Virus record (IMG/VR): IMGVR_UViG_3300033571_016206
Coordinates: 1 to 25,220 of that record
Source of the DNA: a virus
Reading direction: 5' to 3' (one strand)
DNA length: 25,220 nt
Shown: piece after piece, positions 4,854 through 18,364 of the stretch
How positions within the stretch are numbered: position 1 is the stretch's first letter
How the letters are laid out: each line of letters starts with the position of its first letter
The notes under the pieces: model-generated
Told to the model about the DNA's origin: nothing
Databases searched by the model: none
The model's input: only the letters and a program-made list of their open reading frames with translations
Position numbers and translations under genes: made by a program

Positions 4854-6590
4854 CTATGCGTCAGGGTAAATCTGGAGGCTTGGCGCCACGCGGTCGATGT
4901 CGATAGCAGGCGTGGGCTTCATGTCGTAGATGCGGGATACGGCGTCTACCAAGTCATCGTGGCTGCCGAAGGGGAACGTCAGCATTTCATTGATCAGTGC
5001 GTGCGTCAGGTCGTAGATGTTCCCGTCCTCATCGCGGCGTACGATCGCCTGCGGAATGCGGAACTTGGTTCCCATGGCCTCTGCCGCGCGCATCTGCCGG
5101 GTCGGGCCGCGCACGGGCATGTAATCGACCTTCATGTCGGCTTCGTTGTACTTCCAGTAGCAGTCGCCGAACTCCGGGTGCTTGATGATGGGCGGCAGGT
5201 AGAACCGCCCAAGCTCAAAATCAGGCTGAAGGCGCTGTACGCGGTCCTTCTTTGAGTTTGATCCCTCATTCGGCCACGCCAATTCCGCGATGGCGAATTG
5301 GTCATTCTCGTCTTTCAGGGCCAGCATCTTCTCCTGAAAGTACTCGTCATCGGTTTGCTGGCCAAAACGCTCATAGCCCACACTGATCAGCTTGACGCCT
5401 GGTGCATCCCGCCATTTGCGATGCAGCATCAGCAGCATGTCCCAGCGCTCACTAAGCTTCATGCGGTGCCTGGCGCCGTCGAGGAGGTACTTCACTCCTT
5501 GCGCGTCCACACCGACAACCGCAATCGCTGTCCGGTCGTTTCGTTGCAGTCGCCCCCGGCTAGGGTCGCCCATGATATAGACGTTCATCGTCACAGGCCG
5601 GATTTCGTAGGGCCGGAACCACTTGGCCTCGAACATGGCTTGTTTCCCGGCGGCCGGGTTCTGAAGCATCTGCGCGGCCAAGGTGGACCGCTGCGCGATC
5701 TTTGTCTGATCCCACGTTTTTTGTGACAGGAACACCGGCTTGCCTTCGGGGCGTCCATTGTGGGTTGCCGGATGCAGCCGGACTTGCACCACCTTTCGCT
5801 CGATCATGGTCTGGTATGTGTCGCCGAAGGCATAGCGCGTTCCCACGTAGCGGCGGATAGTGCCATCACCGCAGCCTAGGTTGTCGCTCAACTCCCACGC
5901 CTCGGTCGCTTTGGTGATCTGCTCGGGGTTCGAGACGTTTCGCAGCTCGATCATGTCGTCGAACACCAGTACACGAAAGTGGACGCCCGTTGGCTGGCCT
6001 TCGACAAGCCCCCATGCCTCAACCGTGGCCTCTTTTGGGTTGCTGGTGCGCTTGAGAACAATGCCGCCATTCAGGCTCCAGCGCGGCGACTCCCGGTCAG
6101 GCTGCCAGAACAAGACGTCAGGAAAGCAATTCTTGAGCCTGTCGTTCACGCCCAGCTCGTGCATGATCTGCGCGAGGAACTTCGACGCCGTTTGCCGGGA
6201 ATAAGAGAAAATTCCGACGGTCAATTCCGGATCATTGAGTATGTCCTGAATCGTCAGCGCGAAAGTGATGATCGTCGATTTGTAGTGAGTACGCGCCCAC
6301 AGGTCGAGGTGCCCATTGGGAGAAGCCTCAACCTCGCGCACACGGTCGAATATCCACGGATGCACCGCGTCCCGGCGGTTGCACATGCCGACCAACAGGT
6401 AGAACAAATCATTCAGCGCCAGAAACGCCCGGTCAGCGGTTGTCGGCTTCAGCGCTTCGAAACGGTTGTAGAAATCGAGCGTCTCGTCCAGGTCGAGGGT
6501 TGGCAGCATCTCGCCGACTGCCTGAGCAAGATCGGGTATCGCGCTGTCGGGCCGCAGGTATCGCAGGCCGCGCAAGGCCCGCGCCGGCAT
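4854..6590 (-). CDS. terL: Terminase large subunit (packaging ATPase/nuclease)
   Basis: 578 residues, normal length for a phage large terminase, which pumps DNA through the portal and cuts the concatemer. The N-terminal ATPase has a variant Walker A, WARTHYKST at residues 98-106 (the R-x-x-Y-K-S/T form common in this family), followed by a Walker B VLVFDD at about 207-212. The C-terminal RNase H-like nuclease shows the first acidic residue in YIMGDPSRG (D342) and the last acidic cluster in SHDDLVDAV (about 543-551). GGAG lies 9 bases before the ATG. Together with the downstream portal and upstream small-terminase-like gene this identifies the packaging module. Confidence 0.93.
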   Translation of the reverse strand: MPARALRGLRYLRPDSAIPDLAQAVGEMLPTLDLDETLDFYNRFEALKPTTADRAFLALNDLFYLLVGMCNRRDAVHPWIFDRVREVEASPNGHLDLWARTHYKSTIITFALTIQDILNDPELTVGIFSYSRQTASKFLAQIMHELGVNDRLKNCFPDVLFWQPDRESPRWSLNGGIVLKRTSNPKEATVEAWGLVEGQPTGVHFRVLVFDDMIELRNVSNPEQITKATEAWELSDNLGCGDGTIRRYVGTRYAFGDTYQTMIERKVVQVRLHPATHNGRPEGKPVFLSQKTWDQTKIAQRSTLAAQMLQNPAAGKQAMFEAKWFRPYEIRPVTMNVYIMGDPSRGRLQRNDRTAIAVVGVDAQGVKYLLDGARHRMKLSERWDMLLMLHRKWRDAPGVKLISVGYERFGQQTDDEYFQEKMLALKDENDQFAIAELAWPNEGSNSKKDRVQRLQPDFELGRFYLPPIIKHPEFGDCYWKYNEADMKVDYMPVRGPTRQMRAAEAMGTKFRIPQAIVRRDEDGNIYDLTHALINEMLTFPFGSHDDLVDAVSRIYDMKPTPAIDIDRVAPSLQIYPDA

Positions 6591-8244: not shown

Positions 8245-8308
8245 TTACCCCATGATGTTGATTTGGCTTGTGTTTTGTCGGGTTTGAAAAAAAACTGGCT
8301 CACCCCTG

Positions 8309-8337
8309 TTGACATGCGCACCCGTTAGGTGCATAAA
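8309..8337 (+). promoter_or_regulatory. Promoter of the plus-strand cassette
   Basis: A perfect -35 box TTGACA at 8309-8314, a 17-base spacer, and CATAAA as the -10 at 8332-8337 (4 of 6 consensus). The spacer holds the first of two operator palindromes. It drives the genes at 8380 and 8746. The rest of the 8245-8379 gap holds an A8 run at 8287-8294 and no clear leftward promoter. Confidence 0.7.
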
Positions 8338-8360
8338 CATATTACGCACCCGATAGGTGC
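8318..8360. promoter_or_regulatory. Tandem operator pair
   Basis: Two 15-bp dyads, GCACCCGTTAGGTGC (8318-8332) and GCACCCGATAGGTGC (8346-8360), identical except for the central base and spaced 28 bp start to start. One fills the -35/-10 spacer and the other lies just past the -10. This is the layout of a repressor operator. The sequence differs from the immunity-region operator near 16255. Confidence 0.75.
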
Positions 8361-8379
8361 TCAACAAAAGGAGATGACG

Positions 8380-8715
8380 ATGTATTACGCCACTCACTAC
8401 AGCGAAGATGGCAAAATCGACCAGGGCGCTGACATAAGCGCCTTCGCGACAGAACAAGAGGCTCGGGATTGGCTGCTGAAAGCTTTCGAGGGCAGCGGCC
8501 TGCAAGAAGATGGGTTTGAGATCGTCATTGAGACCGGCAGCTACGGCGACTGTTGGATCAAATACAGCCGCGCGCCAGAAGATCGCGACCGGTGGGTTAC
8601 CCCTTTCGCCCTCGGCGACCTGTATGTCGCAGCGCCAGGGCAGCACCCCGGCGGCAAAGCATACTGGATCACGCCGCGGCCGGACGTTTTGGTGGCGACC
8701 CCGCGCAAGCAGTAA
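8380..8715 (+). CDS. Hypothetical protein of the moron-like cassette (111 aa)
   Basis: AGGAG ends 6 bases before the ATG at 8380 (MYYATHYSEDGKIDQGAD), which is preferred over the ATG at 8374 and the more upstream one at 8329; the latter would sit within the operator region. The product is acidic and aromatic-rich and contains ATEQEARDWLLKAFEG, ETGSYGDCWIKYSRAPEDRD and GKAYWITPRP. No membrane segment or catalytic motif is recognised. It is the first gene of a two-gene plus-strand unit with its own promoter, paired operators and terminators, lying against minus-strand phage genes. A lysogen-expressed or conditionally expressed accessory role is inferred. Confidence 0.8.
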   Translation: MYYATHYSEDGKIDQGADISAFATEQEARDWLLKAFEGSGLQEDGFEIVIETGSYGDCWIKYSRAPEDRDRWVTPFALGDLYVAAPGQHPGGKAYWITPRPDVLVATPRKQ

Positions 8716-8745
8716 CCCGTCACAACGGTTCGGAGGATTGGAATC

Positions 8746-9063
8746 ATGAAGAAAATCATCAACGGCAAGCGCTACGACACCAACACCGCCACTTTGATCG
8801 GCGGCGCTACGGCGGATTGCTTTTCGTCCGACTTTCGGTGGTGGGACGAAAAGCTCTACCGCACCGCGAGGTCTGGAGCGTATTTTGTGGCCGGCAGTGG
8901 TGGGCCAATGTCCCGCTGGAGTCGCCGCGTCGATGGCAACAACTGGACGGGCGGCGATGGCATCCGGCCCGTATCGGCTGATCAGGCCTTGCAATGGGCC
9001 GAAGCTCACCTTTCCGCCGAAATCGTTGAGGCGCATTTCGGGCGAGCCATCACCGACGCCTGA
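8746..9063 (+). CDS. Hypothetical protein, MKKIINGKRYDT family
   Basis: 105 residues with GGAGG about 9 bases before the ATG. The N-terminus MKKIINGKRYDTNTATLIGG and the later WWDEKLYRTARSGAYFVAG form a pattern I have seen in small uncharacterised proteins of mobile elements across several phyla: a short beta-rich module where a label is followed by an aromatic EKLYRT segment. The C-terminal third (SADQALQWAEAHLSAEIVEA) is helical. It lies 30 bases after the first cassette gene, in the same unit, and is followed by two terminators. Function is unknown. Confidence 0.8.
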   Translation: MKKIINGKRYDTNTATLIGGATADCFSSDFRWWDEKLYRTARSGAYFVAGSGGPMSRWSRRVDGNNWTGGDGIRPVSADQALQWAEAHLSAEIVEAHFGRAITDA

Positions 9064-9089
9064 CAATTCCTCAACATTTTCAACAATAT

Positions 9090-9134
9090 CCGGCGGAACT
9101 TGCAAAATCAGGCAGTTCCGCCGGAAGCGTTTTT
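9090..9134 (+). terminator. Rho-independent terminator of the cassette
   Basis: A perfect 11-bp stem (CCGGCGGAACT at 9090-9100, AGTTCCGCCGG at 9114-9124) with a 13-base loop, followed after five bases by TTTTT at 9130-9134. It lies 27 bases after the stop of the second cassette gene. Confidence 0.75.
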
Positions 9135-9170
9135 CGAGGGTTTTCCGGTGAGAATTGAGGGTGGCGTTGG

Positions 9171-9197
9171 AAAAGCCCGCTGAAACTGGGCTTTTTT
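9171..9197. terminator. Bidirectional terminator between convergent genes
   Basis: AAAAGCCC (9171-9178) pairs with GGGCTTTT (9188-9195) around a 9-base loop, with T-runs on both strands. It lies between the plus-strand cassette and the end of the leftward replication operon at 9234 and should stop both. Confidence 0.85.
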
Positions 9198-9233
9198 CGG
9201 CCTCCGCAAGCGCGCCGTGCTGGTCGTTGGCGG

Positions 9234-15925: not shown

Positions 15926-16039
15926 CTACGGCGGCAAAGGGGGGCGGGCCGCCAACGGAGGACAACGGCGGCCCGCAAGCAGCGCCCGGACCGGCAGGGA
16001 GGCAACAGGTGCGAGCGTTGCTGTTGATGAATTGGTCAT
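15926..16039 (-). CDS. Candidate small ORF after the Cro-like gene (37 aa)
   Basis: MTNSSTATLAPVASLPVRAL; the start overlaps the YdaS/Cro-like stop as ATGA. The product is Ala/Pro/Arg-rich and low complexity. Coupling is the only support. It may be real or simply a read-on frame. Confidence 0.35.
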   Translation of the reverse strand: MTNSSTATLAPVASLPVRALLAGRRCPPLAARPPLPP

Positions 16040-16248
16040 GCTCTGGAGCTCCGCGCTATTTCGAAAATGTCAGGCCGCAGTCTGTGGCGCGGAATGCCAG
16101 TCAGCCGTTCCAACTGAACAACCCGCTCGGCTGGCACCGCTGTTTTTCCCCAGCGGTAAAGCGTCACTCGGTTAATTCCCAGCCGATCAGCCAAGGCCGT
16201 CACCCTGCCGCGCTCCTCGCTCAGATAGTTCGTCAATGGAGATGTCAT
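16036..16248 (-). CDS. YdaS/Cro-like HTH regulator
   Basis: 70 residues from the ATG at 16248 (MTSPLTNYLSEERGRVTALA). The HTH covers ALADRLGINRVTLYRWGKTA, followed by VPAERVVQLERLTGIPRHRL and RPDIF. This last block (VPAERV--LE--TG--R--LRPDIF) is the signature of the Cro/YdaS family. It is the first gene of the leftward replication operon and is divergent from a putative repressor, the classic Cro position. It likely binds the dyads at 16255-16315. The open frame extends to 16344, but the dyad makes that extension unlikely. Confidence 0.85.
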   Translation of the reverse strand: MTSPLTNYLSEERGRVTALADRLGINRVTLYRWGKTAVPAERVVQLERLTGIPRHRLRPDIFEIARSSRA

Positions 16249-16254
16249 GGCGCT

Positions 16255-16315
16255 TTTCGTTGCATACAGCGCAACGAAAGTCAAGCCCCGTTGTTTCCTG
16301 CAATAACGACAGGAA
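16255..16315. promoter_or_regulatory. Immunity-region operators and leftward promoter element
   Basis: A perfect dyad TTTCGTTGC (16255-16263), 7-base spacer, GCAACGAAA (16271-16279). A second dyad, TTCCTG (16295-16300) and CAGGAA (16310-16315), lies to its right, with a further CGTTG half-site at about 16290. A minus-strand -35-like TTGACT (16284-16279) abuts the first dyad, so binding there would block transcription of the Cro-like gene. A clear -10 box is not seen. Confidence 0.7.
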
Positions 16316-16330
16316 GTTAGGCGCCCGGTT

Positions 16331-16681
16331 ATGTTGCTTTCCATGCCGATTCACGTCATCCACGGATCAAAAAATCCAAACCGGCTGCACTACTTGGCAG
16401 ACTGGATCGAGCGCAGGCACCTCAAGCAGGCCGATGTCGTTCGCGCGCTCGGCGTGGATAAAGCGACGGTTTCACGTTGGTGCTCGGGCCAGATGCCGGA
16501 GCAAAAAAACCTCGATCAGCTTATTGGGTTTCTTGCCTTAGAAGACCCGAATGACCTGTTTCGACACCCCGATGACACCTGGATTCGGCGGTTCTTTGTG
16601 GGGCGCAGCCGCGATGAAATAGACCACATTCGCCGGGTGTTGGAGGTCACATTCCCTAAACGTGACGGTACAAACGGCTAG
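16331..16681 (+). CDS. Putative phage repressor (XRE-type HTH)
   Basis: 116 residues if started at 16331 (TTAGG about 9 bases upstream), 112 if at 16343 (MPIHVIHGSKNPNRLHYLAD). The HTH is residues about 30-60: HLKQADVVRALGVDKATVSR then WCSGQMPEQKNL. The C-terminal half is acidic and aromatic (DDTWIRRFFVGRSRDEIDHI) and lacks a LexA-like peptidase, so it would not self-cleave in the SOS response as lambda CI does. It is divergent from the Cro-like gene across operator dyads, which supports a lysogeny-repressor role. Confidence 0.78.
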   Translation: MLLSMPIHVIHGSKNPNRLHYLADWIERRHLKQADVVRALGVDKATVSRWCSGQMPEQKNLDQLIGFLALEDPNDLFRHPDDTWIRRFFVGRSRDEIDHIRRVLEVTFPKRDGTNG

Positions 16682-17390: not shown

Positions 17391-17789
17391 ATGACGACAC
17401 TAACCATCGAACAAGCTGTCGCGCTGGTAAGCGCCATGAGCAACAACAAGCCAGCAACGCCCGAAGCAGACGCGCCGAAGCTCACCATCATTGGCGAGTT
17501 GGGGCGGCCTGTGATTGTACGCAGCTGTGACGCGGGCGTGCTGTTTGGCGAATACGCCGGGAACGACGGTTCTACCGTGCATCTTTTGAATGCACGTCAA
17601 ATGTGGCGCTGGCACGCAGCAGAAGGCGGAACCCTGATTGACTGCGCTACGGAGGGCGTGATCCCGGCAAAGTGCAAGTTCTCACCGAGTAGAGCGTCGG
17701 TGACGGTGTTTAACGCCTGCGCGCTGATTGATTGCTCCATCAAGGCGGCGGCGTCCATTCGCAGCGTTGCGGGTGAAAAATGGGAATAG
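17391..17789 (+). CDS. DUF6948-like hypothetical protein (132 aa)
   Basis: ATG at 17391 (MTTLTIEQAVALVSAMSNNK), preceded by a leader AACGGAGGACCACAC nearly identical to that of the previous gene. The core PVIVRSCDAGVLFGEYAGND then VHLLNARQMWRWHAAEGGTL matches the pattern of a small beta-rich family found in many phages (VIVRTYSAGVHFGEL-type, DUF6948 from memory). The C-terminal FNACALIDCSIKAAASIRSV completes it. Function is unknown for the family. Confidence 0.75.
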   Translation: MTTLTIEQAVALVSAMSNNKPATPEADAPKLTIIGELGRPVIVRSCDAGVLFGEYAGNDGSTVHLLNARQMWRWHAAEGGTLIDCATEGVIPAKCKFSPSRASVTVFNACALIDCSIKAAASIRSVAGEKWE

Positions 17790-18046
17790 ATTTCATGATC
17801 GTTTTCAACCCTGATTACAACCCTCGAAATGATAACTCGGGCTGGGGCGAGGGCGATGGCTCGGGCTTGGGCTCGGGCTGGGGCTCGGGCGAGGGCGAGG
17901 GCGATGGCTCGGGCTCGGGCCGGGGCTCGGGCTGGGGCGAGGGCGATGGCTCGGGCTGGGGCTCGGGCTGGGGCTCGGGCGAGGGCGAGGGCGATGGCTC
18001 GGGCTGGGGCGAGGGCGATGGCTCGGGCTTGGGCCATGAGGAATAA
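17780..18046 (+). CDS. Gly-dipeptide repeat protein
   Basis: 88 residues if started at 17780 (overlapping the previous gene by 10 bases) or 83 from ATG 17795 ([14 protein letters not shown]). After this short head, 33 consecutive X-Gly dipeptides follow, where X is Ser, Trp, Glu, Asp, Leu or Arg (for example [12 protein letters not shown]), then HEE. All of it is encoded by a hexanucleotide array. Such Gly-rich repeats are seen in uncharacterised phage and bacterial proteins. Because both strands of the array are open in several frames, coding status rests on the plus-strand operon context. Function unknown. Confidence 0.6.
17837..18034 (+). repeat. 33-unit hexanucleotide array (NNGGGC)
   Basis: Thirty-three tandem six-base units of form NNGGGC (GATGGC in four of them). 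A higher-order 72-bp block starting TCGGGCTGGGGCGAGGGC at 17837 recurs at 17927, a 90-bp period, with few changes. G3 runs every six bases give strong G-quadruplex potential on the coding strand. Confidence 0.9.
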
Positions 18047-18049
18047 TCA

Positions 18050-18364
18050 ATGCGCTGCAGCCTAACATTAGACTGGACCGTAGAAATTCCGCTGTCAGAC
18101 GATCCGGACGACGTGGAGTCGGAAGATGTCAAGCTCGAACTCGCGTACGACTACGATGACGGCGGCCTGATCTGGGAAGTTGAGTGCATCCGTTCCGTAG
18201 AGGTTGAGTGCAAAACCGACGGCAAGCGCGAATGGTGCATTGAAACCCGGCAGCCTGTCACCGGCCAGCGAAAAGCGGCGATGATGGCGTTTGTCGAGAC
18301 CCAGCGCCCGAAGATCAGCGGTGCGATTCAGGATCAGCTCGAAGACGCGGATTATGCGTGGTGA
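18050..18364 (+). CDS. Hypothetical protein (104 aa)
   Basis: [20 protein letters not shown], with GAGG about 10 bases upstream. The N-terminal two thirds are acidic and beta-rich ([20 protein letters not shown] and [20 protein letters not shown]), the rest helical. No recognised domain. Shares the DDPDDVE-type phrase with the gene ending at 19391, a short coincidence. Confidence 0.7.

Follow-up and report, generated by a model that had tools for sequence, protein, structure and literature searches.

A phage operon whose operator-promoter appears to travel with the conserved small protein P2: a candidate mobile cargo cassette resembling acr-aca operons in mechanism

Which regulator controls a pair of small plus-strand genes, P1 and P2, lying with a promoter and operators of their own between minus-strand phage genes (7603-8244 and 9234-10142) of a 25-kb virus contig (IMG/VR record, 25,220 nt; this whole stretch of DNA is hereafter called the window)? 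In the preliminary description the pair was considered as a self-contained moron under the control of a different repressor, possibly supplied by the host or by a co-resident prophage, with no obvious regulator gene in the cassette itself. The features of the cassette are as follows:

8309..8337, plus strand: promoter of sigma-70 type, with −35 TTGACA at 8309-8314, a 17-bp spacer and −10 CATAAA at 8332-8337
8318-8332, no strand assigned: operator dyad 1, GCACCCGTTAGGTGC, exact, filling the −35/−10 spacer
8346-8360, no strand assigned: operator dyad 2, GCACCCGATAGGTGC, exact, spanning about +2 to +16
8369..8374, plus strand: ribosome-binding site of P1, AAGGAG, assigned by sequence
8380..8715, plus strand: P1, 111 aa, acidic (pI 4.7), variable first gene, candidate cargo
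8746..9063, plus strand: P2, 105 aa, conserved core gene, last in the operon
9089..9125, plus strand: terminator 1, strong stem-loop (12-14 bp) followed by GCGTTTTTC, assigned by fold, 3' of P2
9171..9201, plus strand: terminator 2, AAAAGCCC...GGGCTTTTTT stem-loop with a U run, assigned by sequence

The TTGACA element and the two 15-bp dyads bracketing the −10 box were found where they had been described, dyad 1 in the spacer and dyad 2 at the start of the transcript. The −10 hexamer CATAAA agrees with the consensus at only four of six positions and was therefore overlooked by the consensus scan; CATAnn is kept at this place in the relatives, and the whole layout TTGAC-N4-dyad-ATA recurs upstream of P2 in six viral contigs (L127, L209, L277, L301, L302 and L305). 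Both dyads are imperfect palindromes with 5-bp arms GCACC/GGTGC and an asymmetric centre CGWTA, and both are unique in the window, where the next-best sites differ by 3 mismatches. Ribosome-binding sites precede P1 as well as P2. As for the two terminators proposed earlier, the hairpin at 9089-9125 (−26.7 kcal/mol) is far more stable than shuffled sequences (z −4.5) and can be accepted, while the one at 9171-9201 (−14.9 kcal/mol), folding no better than shuffles (z −0.5), is plausible by its U run. The block is thereby confirmed as a separate, self-terminated plus-strand operon.

The dissimilarity claimed between these operators and those of the immunity region was also borne out: the immunity-region motif TTTCGTTGC, with a dyad at 16255-16279, is a different motif, distinct from the two cassette dyads. 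In that region a YdaS/Cro-like gene (16036-16344, minus strand) is divergent from an HTH_3 gene (16331-16681, plus strand) with their starts overlapping, and the pair is probably the immunity switch. The TTTCGTTGC dyad falls within the listed 16036-16344 frame and not between the two genes; a third TTTCGTTGC half-site, at 5539-5547 within the terminase gene, is probably there by chance. Elsewhere in the window, at 17780-18132, a short tandem repeat gives rise to highly repetitive open frames on both strands, composed of Gly/Ser/Glu/Asp on the plus strand and of Pro/Ser/Glu on the minus strand.

The pattern TTGAC-N4-GCACCN5GGTGC-ATA was scanned for in the viral contigs of IMG/VR and in cellular genomes. 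Nine matches were registered among the viral contigs, and six of them stand directly before P2 genes, in the six contigs named above, which belong to otherwise unrelated phages. In two of the remaining three (L304 and L306) the contig ends truncate the locus, which leaves L303 as the sole match with other genes. Cellular genomes (85,000; 257 Gb) gave nine matches versus about six expected from base composition. Each of the 11 distinct members of the branch to which P2 belongs has a dyad of the GCAC type, exact or variant, in its promoter region (the variants are GCACTCGGTAGGTGC in L004/L005 and GCACTTTTTGAGTGC in L003), and dyad 1 keeps its place between the −35 and −10 elements in almost every one of them, the window included. 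One dyad was found in L095/L114, while a second or third one is present also in L127, L209, L277 and L326, the last being an independent genome sample found without any operator search, with two 16-bp GCACC..GGTGC dyads at its promoter. The linkage to P2 is exclusive: when whole virus records (4-98 kb) were scanned, the exact dyad proved to be confined to the P2 promoter, and P2 is the only protein family common to all operator-bearing phages, which range from 46 to 71% GC and have unrelated gene sets. On the P2 tree, built from few columns and with many weak forks, the operator label needs 3 changes compared with 8.7 for shuffled labels. Palindromes with arms of at least 7 were found in 10 of 40 P2 promoters versus 11 of 234 other promoters of the same contigs (p=1.6e-4), and those with arms of at least 5 in 25 of 40 versus 61 of 234 (p=1e-5). 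The promoter with its dyad moves together with P2 between unrelated phages and plasmids.

Two other scans were put aside. When viral contigs were searched with the single dyad GCACCCGNTAGGTGC, nearly all among the matches listed were scattered singletons, as expected by chance, and the search for paired GCACCN5GGTGC returned mostly unrelated GCACCANNNTGGTGC repeat arrays and was discarded. These arrays, which have no relation to the cassette, are long palindromic ones alternating with GTTAGTGAG/CTTACT repeats in many viral contigs of the range L181-L297 (e.g. L216, L257, L279).

The location of P2 in related phages agrees with the proposed moron nature of the block. In the L095/L114 phage, with a large terminase 48% identical, P2 lies between the small and large terminase genes, unlike its position in the window, and in L299/L300 (terminase about 44% identical) no P2 is present in the stretches examined. 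A search for close relatives by terminase returned a single near-identical fragment, L298, which starts within the terminase gene and does not reach the cassette. Like other morons, the operon has its own promoter and terminator and opposite-strand neighbours, and it is found elsewhere or is absent in related phages. Often the cassette borders the oppositely oriented late operon. Small or large terminase genes adjoin it in L127, L095, L277, L003, L306 and L209, it is not beside terminase in L301, L302 and L305, and a serine recombinase gene is its neighbour in L305 and L326.

Relatives of P2 were detected in 58 viral contigs. Phages with a relative have Lactobacillus, Paracoccus and Methanomicrobiales as annotated hosts, and plasmid-borne relatives come from Halorubrum, Roseovarius, Lactococcus and Caminibacter, among others; in genomes they are rare (3 of 399 in one phylum, 6 of 399 in another). 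Pfam, PHROGs, NCBIfam and PADLOC gave no match for the window protein, nor did PDB by sequence; one uncharacterised PHROG matches 17 of 60 P2 relatives. P2 belongs to a widespread family, hitherto undescribed, that spans phages, plasmids and archaeal elements. In the window it consists entirely of the core (105 residues), with no ribbon-helix-helix domain and no recognised DNA-binding domain, and its structure model (pLDDT 91) has strands followed by two helices. A Foldseek search gave no significant PDB match and otherwise two uncharacterised phage proteins. The best match of the core was 3'cADPR-binding Lockin (PDB 9p8l; E 0.15, TM 0.25, not significant); that to PUR-alpha of Borrelia (PDB 3nm7) had E 0.41 and a query TM-score of about 0.27, also not significant, the weak likeness to both proteins consisting in strands plus a helix. 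With such values and no match by sequence, P2 was rejected as a homologue of Lockin, an anti-Thoeris sponge. On two Roseovarius plasmids (L319 and L322) a near-identical P2-like gene is followed by a gene of the H-NS family, and in L322 an AbiEii-type gene is located nearby.

While P2 is the conserved gene of these operons, what stands between it and the promoter varies: one or two small genes, or none. As first gene the window has P1, L301 a gene for a zinc-ribbon-like protein, L302 one for a protein of 84 aa and L304 one for a protein of 101 aa, its contig stopping before any P2; L004 carries two genes ahead of P2, the first gene is missing in L209, L277 and L305, and in L127 it is reduced to a 10-codon remnant. 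Altogether 29 cargo proteins of both P2 branches fall into 23 families; among those scanned against Pfam or NCBIfam there was no known anti-defence protein and no useful annotation. Searches with P1 of viral contigs, of phages and plasmids, of 399 genomes and of PDB found no homologue, P1 has no homology to known families, and Pfam, PHROGs and NCBIfam show no helix-turn-helix (HTH) in it; by its position alone it is a candidate cargo gene. One recurrent cargo family (F-K/S-RW...DRLYIN type) precedes P2 in L011, L012, L016, L021, L025 and L029 and has relatives on plasmids of Streptomyces, Polaromonas and Mycolicibacterium, some of them annotated as helix-turn-helix.

In most members from AT-richer phages, including Lactobacillus phage LFP01, P2 is about 40 residues longer due to a C-terminal ribbon-helix-helix (RHH) tail. 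This tail matches RHH_1 with E 7e-4 and 2e-3, just under the gathering score (curated cut-off), and in the model of a tailed P2 it appears as two C-terminal helices. Operons of this sister branch start with TTGAC[A/T]TT-(TATATA, AAATAA, GTACAA)-AA and have a palindrome within the 17-bp spacer. In 1.02 Mb, both strands considered, the motif TTGAC[A/T]TT..TATA..AA occurs 21 times, 17 of them within 650 bp upstream of P2 and three others on the same strand at up to 1.5 kb. Over 32 operons the operator distance correlates with the tail distance given the core distance (partial Mantel r=0.30, p=0.0004), compared with r=0.05 (p=0.28) for the core distance given the tail distance. Tracking of the tail by the operator is what binding of the promoter by the tail, hence autoregulation, would give, and this covariation shows that in the tailed branch operator recognition should be encoded within the cassette. 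Since the operator tracks the tail and not the core, DNA binding need not reside in the core of P2, and in the tail-less branch P2 is therefore no more than a candidate regulator. In L023 (10001-10693) the P2-RHH protein is joined at its end to the cargo domain of L013 (53% identity, E=1e-26), and in L013 this domain is a separate cargo gene before P2.

Because the operator-promoter occurs in cells not beyond chance and P2 is the sole gene shared by operator-bearing phages, control seems to travel with the cassette, and the assumption of a foreign repressor is not supported; the search of cellular genomes for the operator-promoter gave only the chance-level count reported above. The statement that the cassette contains no regulator gene is probably wrong, though not disproved: P2 relatives carry a DNA-binding tail, which makes P2 the obvious candidate for this role.

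The explanation that we prefer, with confidence going about half-way, is a mobile, self-limiting cargo operon, acr-aca-like, that represents a new kind centred on P2 and whose variable cargo is probably directed against defence. The strong sigma-70 promoter would fire upon the entry of DNA into the cell, and the early transcript would yield a variable small protein, here P1, together with conserved P2. A repressor made by the cassette would then bind the palindrome within the promoter and the second one at the start site, shutting the burst off as Aca proteins do in anti-CRISPR operons, and in the tail-less branch P2 itself, possibly with a partner, may bind the GCACC dyads. The absence of a recognised DNA-binding domain from the window P2 and the covariation of the tailed-branch operator with the tail argue against the P2 core as the binder. 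By analogy P1 may act against host defence, and for the cargo in general a role in defence or counter-defence is a reasonable assumption.

In acr-aca operons the core promoter always holds one inverted repeat, sometimes followed by a second, the operon is repressed by its own aca product (autorepressors Aca1-10), and all Aca proteins described there are of the helix-turn-helix type (PMC9410906). The P2 operon resembles them as a short operon of phages and other mobile elements with variable small first genes and a conserved last gene, as having a strong promoter with an inverted repeat in its core, often in a second copy, and presumably in its cassette-encoded control. Unlike them, the window operon has no HTH protein by Pfam, PHROGs and NCBIfam, P2 relatives show RHH, and none of the cargo proteins is known to act as an anti-CRISPR. 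Since an HTH Aca protein is missing, the comparison concerns the mechanism only: by analogy the cassette works like acr-aca and is not filed as such. Anti-CRISPR proteins with built-in autoregulation, AcrIIA1, AcrIIA15 and AcrIF24 (PMC10901769, PMC9638941), are similar to tailed P2 in that a core domain is fused to its own DNA-binding domain, to which L023 adds the cargo domain, but theirs is HTH rather than RHH, and the window P2 has no tail. In plasmids of the pLS20 family an RHH repressor, Reg, controls variable establishment genes through conserved operators at promoters (PMC8708921). The RHH domain of tailed P2, conserved operators, variable genes and a mobile element are common to both systems, whereas Reg is a separate protein with operators at several promoters and P2 cassettes are single operons, mostly of phages. 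In archaeal viruses (Aca8) small orphan genes, some of them with demonstrated anti-defence function, can be recognised by an early promoter sequence that they share (PMC11065993), and the shared promoter sequence of P2 cassettes marks small orphan genes likewise; many promoters per virus bear the archaeal motif, whereas the P2 operator is present once per genome and is tied to one protein family.

The main rival to the self-limiting operon is that P2 is an effector, for instance of counter-defence, that binds a conserved ligand or nucleic acid, with P1 as a second effector and the dyads bound by a regulator encoded elsewhere in the phage or host. The core indeed shows unusual conservation across a range that extends from archaeal elements to phages of Lactobacillus, its tail-less members lack a DNA-binding domain, and its top, although not significant, structural match binds 3'cADPR. 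P2 might be active in its own right, since several cassettes (L209, L277, L305) hold it alone. An unlinked regulator, however, is difficult to reconcile with P2 being the only gene common to operator-bearing phages, with the operator not being seen in cellular promoters and with the operator recognition apparently encoded by cassettes of the tailed branch. We consider this rival unlikely, but deserving serious attention.

Morons controlled in trans exist, and the operator is unlike the immunity dyad of the phage, as one may expect of a fitness or defence moron silenced by a repressor of the host or a co-resident prophage. In 85,000 genomes the operator-promoter is no commoner than chance would allow, which makes such control improbable, and finding the same operator in phages with unrelated gene sets and so different GC content speaks against it as well. 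About equally improbable is an autoregulated toxin-antitoxin module with P1 as the toxin and P2 as the antitoxin, or the reverse. Two small genes with an operator in their promoter, carried by phages and plasmids, would suit it, as would the RHH tails of P2 relatives, which resemble those of many antitoxins; but it is contradicted by the P2-only cassettes (L209, L277, L305, and L127 with its 10-codon remnant), where obligate pairing is lost, by first genes coming from many unrelated families and by the failure of P1 and P2 to match any toxin or antitoxin family of PADLOC, Pfam and NCBIfam. A role of the dyads in RNA, or as a DNA recognition site for packaging, an idea prompted by the frequent proximity of the cassette to terminase genes, can hardly be true, as dyad 1 lies between the −35 and −10 elements, outside the transcript and in a fixed phase to the promoter, and three cassettes (L301, L302, L305) are away from terminase.

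Returning to the self-limiting operon, one can extend it further, to P2 as a self-regulating counter-defence core of a new class in bacterial phages, plasmids and archaeal elements. The core would act on a conserved target, operator control would come from the RHH tail or, as here, from the core fold acting on the GC-rich dyad, and operator-promoters would mark dozens of anti-defence gene families. In this full form the proposal is speculative and rather doubtful. How operator control persists where the DNA-binding tail is missing is the question that the family raises. Aca genes have served as a main bait in searches for anti-CRISPR and other anti-defence genes. A second conserved gene, not of the HTH type and with a recognisable operator, would open new operons of phages and plasmids to the same search. 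The P2 operon thus offers a starting point in the search for new phage genes that may counter bacterial defences, and the 23 cargo families already obtained from P2 operons are all without useful annotation.
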